Shown piece after piece: positions 3,744-24,905 of a stretch of DNA of 64,000 nucleotides. Position 1 is the stretch's first letter, and every line of letters begins with the position of its first letter. Source of the stretch: Bacillota bacterium. Its GTDB lineage: Bacteria > Bacillota > SHA-98 > UBA4971. The stretch is from the NCBI GenBank assembly GCA_030024085.1, contig JASEJE010000010.1, forward strand, positions 1-64,000, written 5' to 3'. Below the pieces are notes generated by a model. That model worked only from the letters and a program-made list of their open reading frames with translations, ran no database searches and was not told where the DNA came from. Both the position numbers and the translations under genes were made by a program.

Positions 3744-5030
3744 ATGGAAAAACAAGCGGGGTGCGCTACGTGGAATTCCACCATGAATGATCGGGACGAC
3801 CTCGGAAGACCGGGCGCGGCAAGCGTTGGCGTGGTCAACCAGCGCGGGACGATGTTGACGTCAGTTGCGGGCATCGTTGGCATTGCTACTGTGCGGCGTT
3901 ATCTCGTCCAGCGTCTGGGCCTGGATGTCCGTTCCGACCAGCCGCCCCAGGCATTGGTCCGACGTTTGGAGGCAGTCCAGGTCGACCCGGTCAACCTGCT
4001 GGCCAGGAATCACGAGTTAGTCTTCCACTGCCGCCTGAGCGGGCGCCGCGCCGGCCGGGCCGACTACTACCAGGGGCCGGATGGCCTCTTTGAATACATC
4101 GCAGGGAACCGCGTCCTTCTACCCCTGGCCGACTTTCCGCTCTTCGTCCCGTTCATGCGTCTCCGCGAGGAAGCCCACCGGGAAACCCTTCGTCGCCTGG
4201 CCGGCCCGGTCCGGCAGGTGCGCGAGGAGATCGAGCGGGCGGGTCCCCTCACTTCCCGCCAGATCGTCTGCGCTGAGAAGGTTTCCGGCTACTGGGATCC
4301 CGCGGCGACTCCGCAGACCAAGGCGACCACCCTGGCCCTACAACTGCTCTGGGAAAGCGGGCTGGTGACCGTCGTCGGTCGTAGCGGGGGAGAGAGTATG
4401 TACGATCTGACCGAGCGCGCCCTGCCGGCCGATCTCCTGGCGCAGGGACAGGAAACGCCACTTGCGGAAGCCCGCCGCCTGCTGCGAGAGAAGTACTACC
4501 GCGCCATGGGTGTGTTCGATGCCGGGCACGTCTTCTTCGGCTGGCAGCACCTGACCGCGCGGGAACGAGTCGCGGCGCTGGCAGAGGACGAGCGGCGCGG
4601 CGTGGTCGAACGGCTGCCGATTGAGGGCGTGGAACGAGCCTACTGGACCGTAGCGGGCATGGGAGAGACGCTGGCTGCGTGCCGGGGAACGGCCGCACCT
4701 GACGGGGTGCGTTTCCTGCCGCCTCTGGACAACCTGCTTTGGCGGCGGGAGCGCCTGGTCGACCTCTTCGACTTTGATTACAAGTGGGAGATCTACACCC
4801 CGGCAGCGAAACGCAAGGGCGGGCCCTACACCATGCCCATCCTCCGCGGGGCGGACTTGGTGGGCCGGCTCGACGCCCACCTGGACCGGGCCGCCTCCAT
4901 GCTGGTGATCGACGGGCTTCGCTACGAGCCGGGGATCAGGGTGACGCAAGCATTGCGGGGGGAGGTGGAGGATGAGATCGAGCGGCTACGGGGATTCTGC
5001 GGAGTGGAGGGGGTGGTTCGCGATTCATGA
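3744..5030 (+). CDS. AlkX/YcaQ-type DNA glycosylase (HTH_42 family)
   Basis: A 428-residue winged-helix protein of the HTH_42 (YcaQ/AlkZ) family, which excises alkylated or crosslinked bases. The family signature EAVQVDPVNLLARNHELVF is present. The catalytic triplet reads Q79-V80-D81, the QxD form of YcaQ/AlkX rather than the QxQ form of AlkZ self-resistance enzymes. A C-terminal FLPPLDNLLWRRER segment is also typical. GGGGGAG precedes ATG 3744, but the first 45 or so residues look non-homologous, so ATG 3852 (MLTSVAG) is an alternative start. Confidence 0.75.
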   Translation: MEKQAGCATWNSTMNDRDDLGRPGAASVGVVNQRGTMLTSVAGIVGIATVRRYLVQRLGLDVRSDQPPQALVRRLEAVQVDPVNLLARNHELVFHCRLSGRRAGRADYYQGPDGLFEYIAGNRVLLPLADFPLFVPFMRLREEAHRETLRRLAGPVRQVREEIERAGPLTSRQIVCAEKVSGYWDPAATPQTKATTLALQLLWESGLVTVVGRSGGESMYDLTERALPADLLAQGQETPLAEARRLLREKYYRAMGVFDAGHVFFGWQHLTARERVAALAEDERRGVVERLPIEGVERAYWTVAGMGETLAACRGTAAPDGVRFLPPLDNLLWRRERLVDLFDFDYKWEIYTPAAKRKGGPYTMPILRGADLVGRLDAHLDRAASMLVIDGLRYEPGIRVTQALRGEVEDEIERLRGFCGVEGVVRDS

Positions 5031-5806: not shown

Positions 5807-6526
5807 TCAGGCAAAAACCTCCTTGAGCTCAATACTCAACCCCTGAAAAACGAGCGACTCCACTCTATCTTCTCTTACGAAGAGCTTCATGTCTGCAATG
5901 TCTCTGTTTTCAAATCGGTATACAATTACCTCCTGGTTGAGGTGATTTACAACCCAGTATTCCTGGATACCGGTCTGCATGTAGAGGTCAAGTTTCTTGA
6001 TAAGGTCCATGCGCGCTGATTCACTGGAAAGCACTTCAACAACGAGGGGGGGAATCCCGGTATATCTGTCCTTCTCATTTCTGTTCTCTGGGTCACATAT
6101 CACCACGAGATCGGGCTGCACCACATTCACATCATGCTCTCCTCGTTTCAGCGTAACATCAAAGGGGGAAAGATAGGGCGCACATTTCTTGGCGTCGAAC
6201 CATAGACGAAATGAAGCATAAAGGTTACCAATGACCTTCTGGTGCGTCATTCCTGGTGAGGCAAGCAGATATGCTGTCCCGTCAATATACTCATACCTTT
6301 CGTTAGCCTCTTCAGACATCACAGTAAAATCTTCATAGCTCATCTTTTTCTCGTTATAACCATACTTGGCGGCCTGCTCATGCACCATGCCCGTGTCGTC
6401 CCAATCCTTGTGCCTGGTTATCTTGGCTATTGGCGTTCCGTTTCTTGTCACGATGATATCTTCTTCATCGAGCAGCTTAAGGTATTTCCCAAAGTTGTTC
6501 TTGATGTCAGTGGCCTTTACTATCAT
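5807..6526 (-). CDS. Phd/YefM antitoxin-like domain fused to a Uma2 endonuclease-like domain
   Basis: A 239-residue two-domain protein. Residues 1-45 resemble a Phd/YefM antitoxin DNA-binding domain (KATDIKNNFGKYLKLL, IIVTRNGTPIAKI). From about residue 65 it is a Uma2/DUF820 PD-(D/E)xK-like domain with E79, QPDLVV (D139), PPLVVEVLSSES (E164) and a GIQEYWVV strand. Uma2 proteins are predicted nucleases of unknown role. The gene is visibly lower in GC than its neighbours, suggesting transfer. The fusion argues against a simple toxin-antitoxin pair, since no separate toxin lies next to it. Confidence 0.8.
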   Translation of the reverse strand: MIVKATDIKNNFGKYLKLLDEEDIIVTRNGTPIAKITRHKDWDDTGMVHEQAAKYGYNEKKMSYEDFTVMSEEANERYEYIDGTAYLLASPGMTHQKVIGNLYASFRLWFDAKKCAPYLSPFDVTLKRGEHDVNVVQPDLVVICDPENRNEKDRYTGIPPLVVEVLSSESARMDLIKKLDLYMQTGIQEYWVVNHLNQEVIVYRFENRDIADMKLFVREDRVESLVFQGLSIELKEVFA

Positions 6527-6825
6527 GTTCCCACCCCGTTGGCTAATACTTTAGCTAACTTATTGTAGCATGTGGGAGACATGTGGTCAATGGGATCTTG
6601 TTTGCCATCAAGAACCCTCCATCCTACGGGTTACGGGTAACCGGGCTCGAAGCCATACCATCTCACCCATTAGGTTTGCCCGGCGCGCCCTGGTTCATGA
6701 GGTCTCATCGGCGCGAAGACCCTGGTCCCTGGCCCTGGCCCTGGCCCTGGGGCGGGGCAGTTGACGCTGCCCGATACCGGCAGGGAAAACGGGTATGCCA
6801 TGCGTACCTGGATTCCAGACGACGG

Positions 6826-10101: not shown

Positions 10102-10292
10102 TTCGGTTAACTACCTCCTTCATACCAATTGATACAGCGGGCCAGTTGATCGTCAGCGCTGACGCGAAAACATCCTGAGTGACTGCCTCCTGCACGACGT
10201 TTGATGCCGAGCATGATTATCGCACTGCACCCGACTCTTCGGACACGACCCCGAGTCCACGTTCGACGTCGGTTGGTCTGACTCCTCTCGGC

Positions 10293-10579
10293 TTGACGTA
10301 CATCACGGGTTCCTCCTGAGCCGTTCCCTGAGTCATCATTGAGAGCGGTCCACTGATGTACATCACTGCTCCCGCTTCGACGGGCGACGTACAGAGCACT
10401 TCACGGAGGACCCGTGACGTGGGGAACGGGTCAAGCGGCAATGGTGACGTACATCACCGGTCGGGGGCGAAAACGCGACCTACGGGACGGTCCGTGGAGG
10501 CTTCGCGACGGAGGGAACGGATGAAGCGGTGGTGATGACGTACGTCACCGATCAGCCACGAATGCGTGACGAACGGGAC
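10293..10579. repeat. Phased palindromic repeat array 1 (10 motifs, 30/30/31-bp steps)
   Basis: Ten 14-bp motifs begin at 10293, 10323, 10353, 10384, 10414, 10444, 10475, 10505, 10535 and 10566, so the steps are 30,30,31 repeated three times. Each motif is two 5-bp half-sites around 4 bp; the best are GTGACGTACATCAC (10444) and ATGACGTACGTCAC (10535). From 10414 some right half-sites change from GTCAC type to GGAAC/GGGAC type while the phase is kept. The array lies between the flavodoxin gene and the promoter of the AbrB-type gene. No ORF explains it, since 91 bp is not a multiple of three. Confidence 0.85.
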
Positions 10580-10628
10580 TTCGGGGAGTTCGGGAACCGA
10601 CGACAGGCTCCGGCTCTGGGACCGGCTC

Positions 10629-10677
10629 TTGCCTCGCTCTCAGGTATGTGTTATCATACTAATCATGTATACATGAT
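10629..10677 (+). promoter_or_regulatory. Promoter with a 16-bp palindromic operator upstream of the AbrB-type gene
   Basis: TTGCCT (10629-10634), a 17-bp spacer and TATCAT (10652-10657) form a promoter. The perfect palindrome ATCATGTATACATGAT (10662-10677) covers the expected transcription start. It is a likely operator, perhaps for the adjacent AbrB-type regulator itself. Confidence 0.65.
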
Positions 10678-10702
10678 AGCGCTGCTGACGACTCCACCGT
10701 GT

Positions 10703-10760
10703 GCGAGGGAAAGCGCGAGGGAAAGCGCGAGGGAAAGCGCGAGGGAAAGCGCGAGGGAAG
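10703..10760 (+). repeat. 12-bp tandem repeat
   Basis: The unit GCGCGAGGGAAA is repeated about five times in the untranslated region between the promoter and the AbrB-type start codon. Copy-number change would alter the 5' leader and the spacing to the ribosome site. Confidence 0.85.
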
Positions 10761-10770
10761 GCGGTAGATC

Positions 10771-11082
10771 ATGACCGGACATGAACCGATTTTCTATGGG
10801 GCTGTAACGGTAGGCGAGCGCGGTCAGGTGGTCATCCCCCAACAGGCCAGGGAAGCTCAGGGGATCAAGCCCGGCGACAAGATGTTGGTGCTGGGCGGAG
10901 GCTTTGGCGGCCATGGCCTGGTGATGATCAAGGCCGAGGCGGTCAGCGGTCTGCTGGCGAGGCTGAGCGAGCGCGTGAGTGCGCTCGAGAAGGTGTTTCG
11001 AATGTCTGCGGAGCACAAGGAGCAGGAGCAGAAACGGGACCCTGATGGGGACGGGGACCAGGACCGGGGCCAGGGCAGGTAG
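10771..11082 (+). CDS. AbrB/SpoVT/MazE-type transcriptional regulator
   Basis: A 103-residue DNA-binding protein. Residues 8-50 match the swapped-hairpin AbrB fold (VTVGERGQVVIPQQAREAQG, IKPGDKMLVL), followed by a short helix (LLARLSERVSALEKVF) and a low-complexity Asp/Gln/Gly tail. Such proteins bind DNA as dimers. It precedes the two ABC exporter genes on the same strand, so it probably regulates them and itself through the palindrome at 10662. The ribosome site is weak (GGAAGGCGG). Confidence 0.85.
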   Translation: MTGHEPIFYGAVTVGERGQVVIPQQAREAQGIKPGDKMLVLGGGFGGHGLVMIKAEAVSGLLARLSERVSALEKVFRMSAEHKEQEQKRDPDGDGDQDRGQGR

Positions 11083-11392: not shown

Positions 11393-13285
11393 ATGGTCAA
11401 GTTGTTCAGATTCCTTAAACCGTATCGAGTCCAGATCGCGTTCGTCGTAGGTCTCGTATTCCTTCAAACGCTCTCTGAGCTATACCTCCCGACATTGATG
11501 TCGGATATCGTCAATACCGGGATTATGAGGAGCGACGTGGACTACATCTGGAAGGTCGGCCGGCTGATGCTGCTGGTCGCCCTGGGTGGGACAACGTGCT
11601 CAATCGCGGCGGCCTTCTTGTCTGCAAGGACAGCCATGGGCTTTGGCAAGGCATTGCGCGCCAGGATTTTCGCCCACGTGGAGAAGTTCTCGTTGCACGA
11701 GTTCGACAAGATCGGTACCCCCTCCCTCATCACCAGGAACACCAACGATGTAACTCAGGTCCAGATGGTCACAATGGTCATGATGCGGATGATGATCAGT
11801 GCGCCCATCATGTGCATCGGCGGCATCATCATGGCCCTGTCGAAGGATAGGGGTCTGGCCTGGGTTCTGGCTGTTGTGTTGCCTGTCCTTGCGGTCATAG
11901 TCGCCTTCGTCGCCAACAGGGGGCTGCCGCTTTTCAGAACCATTCAGGAGAAGATCGACCGGATAAACCTGATCGTCCGCGAGAACCTCGAGGGAATCAG
12001 GGTTATCCGGGCCTTCAACCGCACCGACTACGAGAGGAAGCGTTTTCACGACGCGAACCTCGACCTGACCGAAACCTCTGTCAGGGTCAACAGGCTGATG
12101 GCCCTCCTGATGCCGGTGATGATGCTGATCATGAATTCCACTACAGTCGCCATCATCTGGTTCGGAGCCGTCCGCATCGACCGCGGGACCCTGGAGATCG
12201 GCAACATGATGGCGTTCTTCCAGTATTCCATGCAGATCATGATGTCCCTCCTCATGGCCTCGATGCTGTTTGTCATGATTCCCCGTGCTCAGGCTTCGGC
12301 GGACAGGATTAACGAGGTGCTTGCCGTCGAGCCGGAGATCAACGATCCGGAGATGCCTCGTCACGAGACATCTGATCCGGCGGCTACCGATCCGGCGATG
12401 GCAGAGAGCGAGAGCGAGAGCGAGAGCGAGGGCAAGATCAACACGAAGAGCGATGGCGAGCGCGGGAGCGAGAGTGAGAGCAGGAGCGGGAGCGGGAGCG
12501 GGGGCAGAAGCATCAGCACGGGCCTCGGCGCAGACGGCGAGAAGGGCCATGTTGAGTTTCGCGATGTGACTTTCAGGTACCATGGTGCGGAAGAACCCGC
12601 GCTCAGGGATGTGTCGTTCTGCGCCTGTCCGGGCGAGGTGGTCGCCATAATTGGTGGCACAGGCTCGGGTAAGTCGACGCTGGTGAGCCTGATCCCGCGC
12701 TTCTACGATGTCGGCGACGGCTGCGTCCTGGTGGATGGGGTGGACGTCCGGGAGATGACCCAGGAGCAATTGAGGGCGAAGATCGGCTTCGTGCCCCAGA
12801 AGGCCGTGCTCTTCTCCGGCACGGTTGCCGACAACATCAGGTACGGCAAGGAAGATGCGACTGACGACGAAATCAGGCGTGCCGCGGAGATCGCTCAGGC
12901 CCTGGATTTCATCTCCGAGATGAAAGATGGATTCGACTCTGAGATTGCGCAGGGTGGGACCAACGTCTCGGGCGGGCAGAGGCAGCGCCTTGCCATCGCC
13001 CGCGCGCTGGTCAGGAGGCCCGAGATTTACGTCTTCGATGACAGTTTCTCCGCCCTTGACTTCAAGACCGACGCCAGGCTGCGCGCAGCGTTGAAGAAGG
13101 AGACGGCCGGCGCCACGGTGCTAATCGTGGCCCAGAGAGTCAGCACGGTCATGAGCGCAGATCGGATAGTGGTCCTAGATCAAGGCAGGGTCGTCGGCAT
13201 CGGCACTCATAGAGACCTCCTGAAAACCTGCGAGGTCTACCGTGAGATCGTTTCCTCGCAGCTTCCCGAGGAGGAGATCGCATGA
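11393..13285 (+). CDS. ABC exporter half-transporter with degenerate catalytic site (TM287-like)
   Basis: A 630-residue type IV ABC exporter subunit: six membrane segments in residues 1-310, then an ATPase domain from about 385. Walker A GGTGSGKST starts at 421 and the signature VSGGQRQR at 525. Walker B is VFDD with D550 where catalytic glutamate is normal, as in the degenerate-site subunit of heterodimeric exporters such as TM287/288. An unusual low-complexity Ser/Glu/Gly linker (about residues 335-380) joins the domains and is encoded by a GAGAGC-type microsatellite. The canonical partner gene follows. Substrate unknown; drug or lipid export is typical. Confidence 0.9.
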   Translation: MVKLFRFLKPYRVQIAFVVGLVFLQTLSELYLPTLMSDIVNTGIMRSDVDYIWKVGRLMLLVALGGTTCSIAAAFLSARTAMGFGKALRARIFAHVEKFSLHEFDKIGTPSLITRNTNDVTQVQMVTMVMMRMMISAPIMCIGGIIMALSKDRGLAWVLAVVLPVLAVIVAFVANRGLPLFRTIQEKIDRINLIVRENLEGIRVIRAFNRTDYERKRFHDANLDLTETSVRVNRLMALLMPVMMLIMNSTTVAIIWFGAVRIDRGTLEIGNMMAFFQYSMQIMMSLLMASMLFVMIPRAQASADRINEVLAVEPEINDPEMPRHETSDPAATDPAMAESESESESEGKINTKSDGERGSESESRSGSGSGGRSISTGLGADGEKGHVEFRDVTFRYHGAEEPALRDVSFCACPGEVVAIIGGTGSGKSTLVSLIPRFYDVGDGCVLVDGVDVREMTQEQLRAKIGFVPQKAVLFSGTVADNIRYGKEDATDDEIRRAAEIAQALDFISEMKDGFDSEIAQGGTNVSGGQRQRLAIARALVRRPEIYVFDDSFSALDFKTDARLRAALKKETAGATVLIVAQRVSTVMSADRIVVLDQGRVVGIGTHRDLLKTCEVYREIVSSQLPEEEIA

Positions 13286-13379: not shown

Positions 13380-13498
13380 ATGAGCAAGGACAGCGTGAGC
13401 AGAGATAGCATGAGCGGAGATAGCGAGGGATAGCGTGAGCAGGGATATTATGAGCAGAGACAGCGTGAGCAGAGATGGCGTAAGCAGGGATCGCATGA
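13380..13498 (+). repeat. 15-bp tandem repeat at the 5' end of the second exporter gene
   Basis: About eight imperfect copies of a 15-bp unit (AGCAGAGATAGCGTG) encode repeated MSRD/VSRD. Reading from ATG 13380, the tract hits TAG at 13431 after 17 codons. The exporter frame begins in a different frame at GTG 13435 within the same tract. An indel in the tract has therefore separated an upstream start from the gene. Confidence 0.8.
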
Positions 13499-15405
13499 GC
13501 GGGGGCCCTCTGGCACAGCAACGGCCGGCCGGCCCGGCGCTGCCTGGCGGCTTCAGACCCGGCAGGGGAGGCTTCGGCGGCGGCGGGCACGGATTCGGCC
13601 GGCCGGTTGAAAAGGCCAGGGATTTCAAGGGTACGCTGAAAAGGCTGGCGATCTACCTCAAGCCCATGTGGCCGCGGTTGGCAGTCGTGGTTCTCGCCGC
13701 CGTCGCCAGCACTGCGCTCGGCGTCATCAGCCCCAAGGTCATGGGGAAGGCCATCACCAACCTGGGGCGGACATTCGGGATGAGGCTCATAGGCCTCCCC
13801 GCCGGCGTGGATTTTCGATACATCGGGCATATCGTCCTGTGGCTCGCCGGGCTCTACATCGCAAGCTCGCTCTTCAACTATGTGATGCAGTACACCATGG
13901 CGGGCGTGGCTCAGAAGACCGTCTTCGCCATGCGCCGGGACATGAACGACAAACTCGCCCGCCTGCCGCTAAGGTTCTTTGACGGACGCACGCACGGCGA
14001 GATCATGAGCCGGATGACCAACGACATCGACAACATCAGCATGACATTGCAGCAGAGCCTGGGACAGCTTATCACTTCGTTTGTCGGCATCATCGGCGCC
14101 ATCATCATGATGTTCACCATCAGTTGGCTATTGACGCTGATCTGCCTTCTGACATTGCCGCTTTCATTCTTCGTGACGGCCACGATCGCGAGACTCTCCC
14201 AGAGAAACTTCGCGGCGCAGCAGATGGAGCTCGGTCTACTCAACGGCCACGTGGAGGAGATGTATACCGGCCACAAGATAGTCAAGGCCTTTGGTCACGA
14301 GGGCAAGGCCATTGATCAATTCAGCCAGATCAACGAACGACTTTATAACGCGGCCTGGCGGGCACAATTCATCTCCGGTATCATCTTCCCGCTGATGAAT
14401 TTCATGAACAACATCGGGTACGTGCTCATCTGCGTCATCGGCGGGATCATGGTCACCAAGCGAAGGATTGAACTCGGCGACATCACGGCATTCATCCAGT
14501 ACCAGAGGATGTTCACCATGCCCATAGCACAGACGGCCAATATCGTGAACATCCTCCAGTCCACGGTGGCTTCCGCCGAGCGTGTATTTGAGTTGCTGGA
14601 CGAACCGGAGGAGATTCCCGACACCGCCGCTGCCGCAACCATTGCGTCACCGCGAGGTGAGGTCAAGTTCCAGAATGTCAGGTTCAGCTATAAGAAAGGC
14701 GTCCCATTGATCGAGAACCTCAACATGCAGGTTAGGCCGGGACAGACAATCGCCATCGTGGGCCCGACCGGCGCCGGCAAGACCACCCTCGTCAACCTGC
14801 TCATGCGTTTCTACGAGATAGACGGAGGCAGTATCACCATCGACGGCGTCGACATCAGGGATTTGAAGCGCGGAGAGCTGCGCAGGCTCTTCGGCATGGT
14901 GCTGCAGGATACCTGGCTCTTCAACGGCACCATCCGGGACAATATCGCCTACGGCCGCGAAGGCGCCACTGACGAGGAGATCGTGCGGGCCGCCAGGGCT
15001 GCGCAGGCCGACCACTTCATCAGGGCTCTCCCCGATGGCTACAACACCATTTTGAATGAAGAGGCCTCCAACATCTCCCAGGGCGAGAGGCAGCTGCTGA
15101 CCATCGCGCGGGCATTCCTGGCTGATCCGGCTATTCTCATTCTCGACGAAGCGACCAGTAGCGTCGACACGAGGACTGAGATCTACATCCAAAAGGCCAT
15201 GGCAGAACTGATGAAAGGCCGGACGAGTTTCGTCATCGCCCACCGGCTCTCCACAATTCGAAACGCGGAATCGATCCTGGTGATGAATAACGGCAGCATC
15301 ATCGAGACCGGCACCCACGGGCAATTGCTCGCCAAGGGCAGCCTCTACGCCGATCTTTACAATAGCCAGTTTGCCAAGGCCCATGTTGACGACCAGGCGG
15401 TCTGA
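13435..15405 (+). CDS. ABC exporter half-transporter with canonical catalytic site (TM288-like)
   Basis: A 656-residue partner of the preceding exporter subunit. An N-terminal repetitive MSRD tract and a Gly/Arg-rich region (GRGGFGGGGHGFGRP) come before six membrane segments. The ATPase domain has Walker A GPTGAGKTT at 443-451, signature ISQGERQ at 547-553 and Walker B ILILDE with catalytic E572. One intact and one degenerate site imply a heterodimer. The start is uncertain: GTG 13435 or an internal ATG such as 13495 (MSGGPLAQ). It begins about 150 nt after the partner's stop. Confidence 0.9.
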   Translation: MSRDIMSRDSVSRDGVSRDRMSGGPLAQQRPAGPALPGGFRPGRGGFGGGGHGFGRPVEKARDFKGTLKRLAIYLKPMWPRLAVVVLAAVASTALGVISPKVMGKAITNLGRTFGMRLIGLPAGVDFRYIGHIVLWLAGLYIASSLFNYVMQYTMAGVAQKTVFAMRRDMNDKLARLPLRFFDGRTHGEIMSRMTNDIDNISMTLQQSLGQLITSFVGIIGAIIMMFTISWLLTLICLLTLPLSFFVTATIARLSQRNFAAQQMELGLLNGHVEEMYTGHKIVKAFGHEGKAIDQFSQINERLYNAAWRAQFISGIIFPLMNFMNNIGYVLICVIGGIMVTKRRIELGDITAFIQYQRMFTMPIAQTANIVNILQSTVASAERVFELLDEPEEIPDTAAAATIASPRGEVKFQNVRFSYKKGVPLIENLNMQVRPGQTIAIVGPTGAGKTTLVNLLMRFYEIDGGSITIDGVDIRDLKRGELRRLFGMVLQDTWLFNGTIRDNIAYGREGATDEEIVRAARAAQADHFIRALPDGYNTILNEEASNISQGERQLLTIARAFLADPAILILDEATSSVDTRTEIYIQKAMAELMKGRTSFVIAHRLSTIRNAESILVMNNGSIIETGTHGQLLAKGSLYADLYNSQFAKAHVDDQAV

Positions 15406-22250: not shown

Positions 22251-22300
22251 CAGGGTGCGTTAGTTCTTGTCTGTTTGCCAGCAGTTGCCGGAAGCGTTCG
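22251..22300 (+). repeat. Dispersed repeat, copy 3 (5' part)
   Basis: CAGGGTGCGTTAGTTCTTG, then CAGCAGTTGCCGG, match the 5' part of the copies at 27188 and 57279. The copy runs directly into the first motif of the phased array at 22296. Confidence 0.65.
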
Positions 22301-22794
22301 CCACGTCACTATTAGCGGCTATCGGGCGACGCACATCACTGGTCACGGCCCTACCCGTTCCCAACGTCACATGTGCCAGGGGACGCGTGACGTGCGTCAC
22401 TCGTTAGGCTCTTCCCGTTCAGTACGTCACGGATCAGGACCCGATCCGTGAGGTACGTCATCGTTCCCGCCTTACCCGTTCCCTCCGTCGCACGTTCCTC
22501 ATGAAGAGTTCCATACGTCACCCATTCGCGCCTGATCCGTGACGAGCGTCATTACTGCCGCCGTATTCGTTCCCTGCGTCACGGATCCCCCACGAAGTGT
22601 TCCATACGTCACTCGTCGAAACTGGACAGGGGACGGACGTCACGGGTCCTTCCGCAACCGTTCCGCACATCCCGCTTGAGAGCCGTCCACTGACGTACAT
22701 CACCGGTCCGGTCCTGACCCGTTCCCCGTGTCACGCATGCAAGGGGACCGGTGCTACGCGTCACTCTTTCCGCCCCACCCGTTCCGTACATCAC
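22296..22794. repeat. Phased palindromic repeat array 2 (17 motifs, 30/30/31-bp steps)
   Basis: Seventeen 14-bp motifs start at 22296, 22326, 22357, 22387, 22417, 22448, 22478, 22508, 22539, 22569, 22599, 22630, 22660, 22690, 22721, 22751 and 22781. Every third start is exactly 91 bp apart. The motif forms are GTTCCATACGTCAC and GTGACGTGCGTCAC, two half-sites around 4 bp. Motif groups at 22448-22521 and 22539-22612 are clearly related 91-bp duplicates. It fills the gap between aroQ and aroKB and is the same family as the array at 10293-10579. Confidence 0.88.
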
Positions 22795-22928
22795 GGGTCT
22801 TCCGGGAACGGTTTTCCGGGAACCGCGAGGTCAACTCTAGGGCCATCGGGGCCGGGGGTCGCCCTCCTAGACAAGCCCGCCAGGCCCACGAGGCCGCGCC
22901 GCGGCACTTCGTGTCTGGGAAAGTGGCA

Positions 22929-24905
22929 TTAGTTAGTGGCCAGATCGCCCTGAGGGCCAGCGAGGGCGATCCCGCTGGGACCAGCCCGCGCGATCTGGCC
23001 AGGCATGACTATCTCCTCCGCCAGTGCTTCCGCGGCCGGATCCTCGCAGACGGAGCATCTTCCTATGGAGAGCGGCAGCACGACGCGAAGCTTGCCCCCA
23101 CGGGCTTTCTTGTCAAGGGCCATAGCGGCCAGGATGGATTTGCGGAGGGCGTCACCGTCCGTGAGTGGGACCGACGTTGGCAACCCAAGGCCTGCGAGCA
23201 GTCGGATCACCCGCGCCGAGGCGTCCTCCTGAAGGTAGCCCAGGCGCGCGGATGCGCGACAAGCTGCGGCAAGACCTATCGCCACGGCTTCTCCGTGGGT
23301 CCAGCGCCGAAAGCCGCCAGCCCGCTCGATGGCGTGGCCGAGCGTGTGGCCGAGGTTGAGGAGCAGGCGGTCTCCCGTGTCGCGCTCGTCCGTGGCCACG
23401 ATCTTGGCCTTAACCATGACCGCCCTGCGGACGATGTCCTGCCACAAGGCAGGTTCCTGCTGGAGGGTCCGGGCTGCGGCGAACCTGGCGGCGCGCGGAC
23501 GCCGGAGGCCGGCGGTGCGGCACCCATCGGTCGAACGGGTGTCGGCGCCGCCCGCTACCCGGGCCACGTGCTCCAGGGTTTCGAAGAGATCTGGGTCCCC
23601 GATGACCGCGGCCTTGACTACTTCTGCGAGCCCGCTCGTGAGATCGCGCAGTGGCAACGTCCCCAGAGTGGTGATGTCTGCTATCACGGCCGCGGGCTGC
23701 CAGAACGTGCCGGCGAGGTTCTTGGCGGCCCGGAGGTTGATCGCGGTCTTCCCGCCGACGGCGCTGTCCACCATTGCCAGCAGCGTGGTGGGCACGTGGA
23801 CCAGCCTGACCCCGCGCATGTATGTGGCGGCGAAGAACCCCGCCACGTCGCCGACGGTGCCGCCTCCAAGGGCGATCACCAGCGAGTCGCGGCCGGCGCC
23901 GGAGGCCGCGGCGAGGTCGTACAGCTTCGCCAGGGTCGCAAGGCTTTTCGCTCTCTCGCCCTCGGCGACCATGGCCCACGCGATGGGCGGGGCGCAGCCA
24001 AGCCAGCTGCGAAGGCCTTCTTCGAGTCGCCCGCCGAAGAGCGACCGGAGCAGGGGGGTGGTGACCACGATGATCCTGCCGGGAGGCCGCCCGCCGTCGG
24101 GGCTTCGATGGCCAAGGGCCGTGTCGTACGTGCCTGGACGGGGGAGGAGGCCGCAGCCAGCGAGGTACGGGTACACTGCGGTTCCCGCGGTGATCTCGAG
24201 CAGGTACGGTTCACCGCGATCCGGCTGCGCTTCGTCCCGATGCTCGCACACACCGCGTGAACTCCGAACCGGGACAGCCTGCTCTCCGGCCGTACCACAG
24301 GTTTCCGAACCGTCCGCGAGGGGCGGGCACGCCGCCGTCCACGCGATCTTGCGGACTATCTCGCGGGCGATGTCCTCGGGGCGTTTGCCGTCGGTATCGA
24401 TGGCGACGTGCGCTTGCCGGTATCCTTGCTCCCGCGCGCTCATCAGGGAACGTACCTGCTCTATGTCGGCCTTTCCTTGGAGCACCGGCCTTGAATCCAT
24501 CCCAGGCGCGTGTTCGGAGGAGCCGTCTTCGGAGCTGTCCGGCCGCGGCCGCAGGCGGGCGAGGACGCTCTCAGGGGACGCGCGCAGCCATACGAGAAGG
24601 CCCGCGCGCTTCAGGGCCTTGACGTTTCGCTGGTCCATGAGCGCTCCGCCGCCCACGGAGATGACGGTGCTGTTGAGCCTCGAGGCCTGCCTCACCGCGC
24701 GGGCTTCCAGGCGTCTGAACCAGGCTTCCCCGCGCGTCCGGAAGATCTCGCTGATAGTGGCGCCTGCCTCTGATTCGATGAGGGCGTCGGTATCGAGAAA
24801 CGCCATCCCGAGCAGCGCGGCAAGGCACCCGCCGACGGAGGACTTGCCCGCCCCCATGAAGCCCGTCAGTATGATGTTGGTAGCTGTAGTCGGTACGGCC
24901 GTCAT
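22929..24905 (-). CDS. aroKB: Shikimate kinase / 3-dehydroquinate synthase fusion
   Basis: A 658-residue bifunctional enzyme. The N-terminal shikimate kinase (about 1-195) has Walker A GFMGAGKS at 15-22, DTDALIE, FRRLEARAV and VISVGGGA. The 3-dehydroquinate synthase part (about 250-620) has GGGTVGDVAGFFAATYMRG, VPTTLLAMVDSAVGGKTAIN and LLNLGHTLGHAIE for NAD, substrate and metal binding. A linker rich in Cys, Ser and Glu joins them, and a variable insert lies inside each half. It catalyses steps 2 and 5 of the pathway. ATG 24905 has GAGGGAGA upstream. Confidence 0.93.
   Translation of the reverse strand: MTAVPTTATNIILTGFMGAGKSSVGGCLAALLGMAFLDTDALIESEAGATISEIFRTRGEAWFRRLEARAVRQASRLNSTVISVGGGALMDQRNVKALKRAGLLVWLRASPESVLARLRPRPDSSEDGSSEHAPGMDSRPVLQGKADIEQVRSLMSAREQGYRQAHVAIDTDGKRPEDIAREIVRKIAWTAACPPLADGSETCGTAGEQAVPVRSSRGVCEHRDEAQPDRGEPYLLEITAGTAVYPYLAGCGLLPRPGTYDTALGHRSPDGGRPPGRIIVVTTPLLRSLFGGRLEEGLRSWLGCAPPIAWAMVAEGERAKSLATLAKLYDLAAASGAGRDSLVIALGGGTVGDVAGFFAATYMRGVRLVHVPTTLLAMVDSAVGGKTAINLRAAKNLAGTFWQPAAVIADITTLGTLPLRDLTSGLAEVVKAAVIGDPDLFETLEHVARVAGGADTRSTDGCRTAGLRRPRAARFAAARTLQQEPALWQDIVRRAVMVKAKIVATDERDTGDRLLLNLGHTLGHAIERAGGFRRWTHGEAVAIGLAAACRASARLGYLQEDASARVIRLLAGLGLPTSVPLTDGDALRKSILAAMALDKKARGGKLRVVLPLSIGRCSVCEDPAAEALAEEIVMPGQIARAGPSGIALAGPQGDLATN

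Follow-up and report, generated by a model that had tools for sequence, protein, structure and literature searches.

Upstream of an abrB-ABC-ABC operon in a Bacillota bacterium lies a row of ten dyad sites set on a regular 30/30/31-bp ladder, and this row belongs to a family of 41 related arrays dispersed in the genome, members of which are carried by a mobile MITE. On balance it is judged probable from the sequence evidence that the row serves some cooperative DNA-binding protein as an operator array, the likeliest ligand being the AbrB-fold protein of the operon, and that it was spread by the MITE. The window, i.e. the whole stretch of DNA that was analysed (64,000 nucleotides of contig JASEJE010000010.1, assembly GCA_030024085.1), holds two arrays, of which array 1 is found at the operon and array 2 within an element (Table 1).

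Table 1. Features of the window discussed in the text
Feature	Position	Strand	Remarks
Array 1	10289..10583	.	ten site positions, 30/30/31 ladder, no MITE ends, upstream of abrB gene
Array 1, plus part (sites A, B, A)	10294..10374	+	91% identity to MITE-borne array
Array 1, minus part	10354..10579	-	overlaps plus part at palindromic A site near 10359
Promoter-like stretch with palindrome	10645..10679	+	conserved before G016 orthologue (alignment); putative role
abrB-type gene	10771..11082	+	PF04014 / TIGR01439; product of 103 aa, proposed ligand of array
ABC exporter half 1	11393..13285	+	ABC_membrane, ABC_tran
ABC exporter half 2	13435..15405	+	ABC_membrane, ABC_tran
MITE-type element around array 2	22260..22932	+	TTAG at both ends; weak inverted ends, placed by eye; arm alignment
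Array 2	22291..22798	+	17 sites, every step 30 or 31

The array at the operon

The ladder of array 1 was evaluated with a site matrix derived from 19 other genomic copies, both window arrays being excluded. When offsets of -1, 0 and +1 were tried, the predicted centres (10299.5 to 10572.5) scored highest at offset 0 in 10/10 cases; three of the ten sites are weak or decayed, with scores of 8.6, 1.7 and -1.5 at 10390, 10481 and 10572. The summed matrix score on the 30/30/31 ladder is 159, against a mean of -329 (sd 19) and a maximum of -250 in 500 dinucleotide shuffles, and no other three-step pattern with steps of 27-34 bp scores as high. All ten motif positions that the initial annotation had placed on this stepping at 10293-10579 do fall on the ladder, and the ladder stands the comparison with shuffled sequence. 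The units of array 1 have little in common beyond their cores, the array is unreported by Tandem Repeats Finder at score 40, and a search for terminal inverted repeats (TIR) found no pair around it.

The initial annotation had also described a change of half-site type from 10414 that left the steps unbroken. Right halves of the GGAAC (10420, 10511) and GGGAC (10481, 10572) form are present there, but they are the same B site on the opposite strand and not a new type: blast of array 1 to the reference copy aligns 10294-10374 on the plus strand, and 10354-10489 and 10415-10579 on the minus strand. From about 10390 array 1 is an opposite-strand reading and the half-site change is a strand flip. 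GTTCC passes to GGAAC without a break of phase because the join is a palindromic A site, and so the unbroken step pattern holds as described.

The array family

A search of the window genome (G000; 3.11 Mb, 65 contigs) with array 1 as query gave 124 matches, and the 35 regions covering the listed match places were scanned together with the window for clusters of four or more sites at 9 bits. Forty clusters were found, to which one at a contig end (L136) is to be added, whereas two further loci in the scan hold no array. Counted genome-wide, as the initial annotation had proposed, there are 41 arrays in a 3.1-Mb genome, dispersed at about one per 75 kb, so the original picture of just two copies has to be given up. 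The matrix for the cluster, relative, single-site, offset and shuffle scans was built from the same 19 copies. For array 2 (22302-22787) the score is 398, while its shuffles reach at most -495. Outside arrays, matrix matches at 9 bits stay at a background of 0.012 per kb and strand, and the sites are seldom single (11 centres at >=7 bits, i.e. at least 7, in 477 kb, 5/11 of them intergenic). Sites of CRP/FNR-like regulators have a TGA-N6-TCA geometry; single promoter sites for such a regulator were searched for and are nearly absent.

The spacing is strict throughout the genome, 484/499 steps being 30 or 31 bp (348 at 30, 136 at 31) and 9/499 being 60 or 61 with a site below threshold in between. 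The remaining six are off the ladder (18, 28, 33, 38, 59, 123), and in L028 and L031 the sequence of 30s and 31s is also shifted. Typically an array counts 15 sites, ordered ABABABABBABABAB. The A site is a palindrome, GTGAYGTACRTCAC, and in the B site its left half is replaced by CGTTCC. In both, position -10 is A or T, -5 and +11 are T, and +4 to +6 read TCA. A higher-order repeat of 273 bp comprises nine sites (offset 50 to 323 of the array). Array size ranges from 6 to 20 sites, and the length changes are mostly whole units of 60, 91 or 273 bp, which can be described as variable tandem modules between fixed ends; in the G002 orthologue of L019 exactly nine sites are missing. The array spectrum has peaks near 15 and 30 bp and no 10-bp A/T periodicity. 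A CRISPR array was considered and rejected, as the spacers are not unique and the linkers are common to the copies (mean pairwise identity.77). As judged with a crude gene caller, divergent, tandem and convergent neighbours of the elements are about as frequent as expected.

The mobile carrier

The element consists of a left arm of ~55 bp, the array and a right arm of ~110 bp (~610 bp in a typical copy), and ends in terminal inverted repeats, TAGTACTGCTCTGTCA and its complement. In this long form, TIR pairs 609-763 bp apart flank the array at 13 loci of G000, with identical 4-bp flanks in 4/13, all of the YTAR type. There is also a short form without array, represented by eight TIR pairs of 125-149 bp in G000 and G002, of which four have identical flanks, one being ATAG/ATAG. 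Where G002 carries the short form at L067, G000 has the empty site, in which CTAA is present once. These features mark the carrier as a mobile MITE, its mobility being evidenced for the short form; since that form has moved (TSDs, empty site) without carrying an array, the array is needless for movement. For the long form no clean empty site was found, L087 being without the L029 element but with flanks whose alignment is not clean.

IS701 elements use YTAR targets. Targets of the same type are reported for IS5 elements in the cited account (PMC10359306). None of the transposase loci found (PF01609, PF05598 and PF13586 in the genus, PF13546 in G000) has matching ends around the gene. A DUF772 transposase remnant lies at L018:5066-5647, with a solitary right end of the MITE on one side and the L018 array element on the other; it is outside the ends of that element, and an autonomous transposase was not found in these searches.

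A second dispersed repeat of ~200 bp (CAAAATCCGGC...TTTTGACACCC...GCACCCTCACTTAG) was seen beside or inside arrays, namely at L029 about 6004-6240, at L070 about 6560-6680 and inside the array of L071, and several MITE copies are apparently inserted at its CACTTAG end. At L063 (G002, position 4776) the left side of the element matches L029 at 99.4% and the right side L009 at 96%, possibly by recombination of copies or by misassembly.

Constraint on bases and spacing

Private mutations were counted in 19 full arrays picked by a span of 424-430 bp, a choice that favours unbroken copies; there are 12 at 121 core positions, 72 at 164 other in-site positions and 73 at 158 linker positions, i.e. 9.9, 43.9 and 46.2 per 100 positions, so that cores have 4-5 times fewer than linkers (Fisher p 7e-9). 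The difference persists outside CpG. Mean pairwise identity in the same arrays is.977 for cores and.766 for linkers. Indels are about ten times rarer in the arrays (4 in 8861 bp, 20 copies) than in the arms of the same elements (20 in 3960 aligned bp, 27 copies), a comparison in which the array total is limited to copies of span 424, favouring intact arrays, and leaves out seven copies with other spans. All four array indels fall in L010 and cancel each other; about seven more phase shifts come from the copies with other spans (in L012, L021, L028, L031 and L040). Substitution levels are alike (arms.125, arrays.106). No covariation was found within sites, the paired fraction being equal to independence at every symmetric pair.

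We read these contrasts as pointing to protein-type DNA sites in which both the bases and the spacing would matter. The constraint may come from selection on each resident copy or from selection during spread. The arrays at orthologous loci of G003 and G004 are broken. Blast tables hinted that the array is more conserved than its flank at orthologous loci; this failed on inspection and was dropped because nearby intergenic DNA is about equally conserved and L070 and L071 are broken.

The initial annotation had seen in the window two loci of one geometry with diverged bases, and had proposed that spacing matters more than exact sequence or that both arrays descend from one 91-bp ancestor. The common geometry is real and the rarity of indels speaks for a strong constraint on spacing, but the divergence is that of the drifting linkers, while the cores (TGA...TCA in A, GTTCC...TCA in B, and T at +11) are kept at 98-100% at most positions. 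A common origin of the two arrays is likewise retained, with the correction that the ancestor was more than a simple 91-bp unit, namely an alternating A/B array with the 273-bp higher-order repeat.

Relatives and the abrB operon

A unit model finds arrays in 7/17 genomes of the class at E 1e-4 (G000-G004, G015 and, more weakly, G016) and, with stricter filters, in 5/299 genomes of the phylum at E 1e-6, all five of the same class. Copy number is very uneven among close relatives, and steps of 30 or 31 make up 103/119 in the relatives (35 loci, one of them from G000). Around the G015 and G016 arrays no TIR pair was found. In the phages and plasmids searched there is no similar DNA, and the pattern is absent from the viral contigs searched. 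Among named genomes it was met only in Firmicutes bacterium UBA6811, plus once, as one B-A match, at the contig end of a Spirochaetales MAG (SLTF01000302.1, L061:10-49) before a transporter-like reading frame, a match possibly due to chance. In G015 a CRISPR-like repeat unit, recognised by eye, stands immediately before the array (L075:5477-5509), and a separate row of TGCCAA...TTGGCA palindromes follows it (5975-6300).

The position of array 1 in front of the AbrB-type gene and exporter, already pointed out in the initial annotation, recurs in another family of the same class. G016 has two arrays, the first of which (six recognised sites, steps 30, 33, 60, 30, 30) precedes the orthologue of the window operon. 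The AbrB protein is 88.6% identical over 88 aa, residues 1-67 being the same in both, and the exporter halves are 78.9% and 87.8% identical. Operon DNA reaches 84-87% identity, a value high enough to suggest that the operon was spread by horizontal transfer; the other genes of both G016 stretches have no match among the G000 loci examined. The second G016 array, with eleven sites, directly precedes another AbrB-fold coding stretch (PF04014, E 2.4e-12) in which no standard start codon was seen. A search of all loci examined, G001-G004 and G015 included, with two AbrB queries revealed no additional AbrB gene next to an array; away from arrays it gave three matches, all weak (E 0.02 to 0.16).

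Two local repeats of the window operon were recorded. Five 12-bp repeats (GCGAGGGAAAGC) at 10703-10763 separate the promoter-like stretch from the start of abrB and are absent in G016. A GAGAGC hexamer array occupies 12404-12500 in exporter half 1, and the stretch around it (~12350-12533) is missing in the G016 orthologue, which has 575 aa as compared to 630.

Possible function

In the operator reading, dyad sites of ~22 bp repeated every 30.33 bp, about three DNA turns, would form a polyvalent operator, where units of one DNA-binding protein, dimeric or tetrameric, could dock side by side to give a regular nucleoprotein row. The array ahead of abrB-ABC-ABC would control that operon, whose AbrB-fold product appears to be the likeliest ligand. 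A 15-site version would have been taken up by a MITE that has inverted ends and targets of the YTAR type, and been brought to about forty intergenic places, where the copies, with cores and spacing still kept, may recruit the same protein. The direction would be from array to MITE, and there may be effects on the operon or on MITE-adjacent genes. AbrB of Bacillus is described in the published passages as tetrameric, with positive cooperativity in its binding to long targets, and is likened to nucleoid proteins (PMC4022651). Its known motif is TGGNA (PMC11135676), whereas the putative sites here are TGA-N6-TCA or GTTCC...TCA at a fixed pitch. This unlikeness to TGGNA, together with the 33-bp step in the G016 operon array, counts against the operator reading. 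Also counting against it are the absence of an AbrB gene beside the G001-G004 and G015 arrays examined and the broken G003 and G004 orthologues.

An unlikely but better surviving alternative is that the array binds a dedicated chromosome-organising protein with a SlmA-, Noc- or MatP-like role, the MITE copies being docking sites and AbrB a mere neighbour. The dispersal of the 41 arrays and the near lack of single sites would suit such a role, and in its arms the A site is similar to matS, GTGACRNYGTCAC, as given in PMC6907758, with a spacer one base longer. Identity with matS and MatP was nevertheless rejected, the spacer being 4 bp against 3 bp and the MatP family protein (PF06303) being absent from G000. 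Moreover, the AbrB neighbourhood would have to be coincidental, and the very uneven copy number in close relatives is odd for an essential system.

The other three readings fit less well. That the array is a neutral minisatellite in a MITE, with order and spacing merely inherited from a recent founder, seems quite improbable: decay or breakage of orthologous copies in relatives agrees with it, and changes by whole units are explicable by unequal recombination, but it is already strained by the 4-5 fold core/linker difference within the same copies and by the indel excess in the arms of the same elements, and arrays without MITE ends in other families mostly stay at 30 or 31. Still more doubtful is a role as transposase-binding sites that aid MITE movement; location inside a mobile element and selection during spread could explain the conserved cores, yet the array-less short form has moved, and MITE ends are lacking at the arrays of G015 and G016. 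A transcribed RNA (attenuator or processed hairpins) has the slightest chance of all, for palindromic A sites, one element that folds modestly better than shuffles (z -2.4) and an antisense orientation to tandem neighbours in 17/22 elements (18 with the L015 orientation read by blast) are opposed by the lack of within-site covariation, by B sites that are not self-complementary and by Rfam, which has no match in the 64-kb window.

Related systems and significance

The closest known systems are BrickBuilt and BOX, relatives in kind as MITEs with an internal array. According to the published passages on it (PMC4596501), BrickBuilt of Porphyromonas gingivalis is a MITE with leader, tandem-repeat array, tail and inverted-repeat ends, present in 19 intergenic copies with 1 to 22.8 copies of a 23-nt repeat without spacers. 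The present family differs from that description: its dyad sites alternate, are spaced 30/30/31, number 15 as a rule, and have conserved cores and another sequence, and a related array that lacks MITE ends stands at an operon. BOX of Streptococcus pneumoniae is likewise a modular mobile repeat with boxA/boxC ends, variable boxB number, TIR and TSD, and is described in the cited account by predicted RNA structure (PMC3049150), while here the lack of covariation and the strict spacing point to DNA sites. The Correia element at mtrCDE is reported in the cited account as a MITE carrying a site for a host protein (IHF) and regulating an efflux operon (PMC10969869), with a single site there as against fifteen phased candidate sites here. 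No published description of the array element was found among the open-licence PMC papers searched; tandem-repeat MITEs are known, and none was found described there with phased dyad protein-type repeats related to an operon control region. New are the strict helical phase, the alternating half-sites, the core conservation and the tie to the operon.

As a tentative and rather unlikely extension, the family may be a transposable operator array, in which the control region of an AbrB-exporter operon was seeded by a MITE and one cooperative AbrB-fold protein, bound in fixed-pitch rows across the chromosome, would link scattered loci in a single network for regulation or nucleoid shaping. With about forty natural copies at differing stages of decay, the family is a data set on the constraint of spacing and sequence in a multi-site operator, and it makes testable whether mobile elements spread the binding platform of a regulator through a genome.
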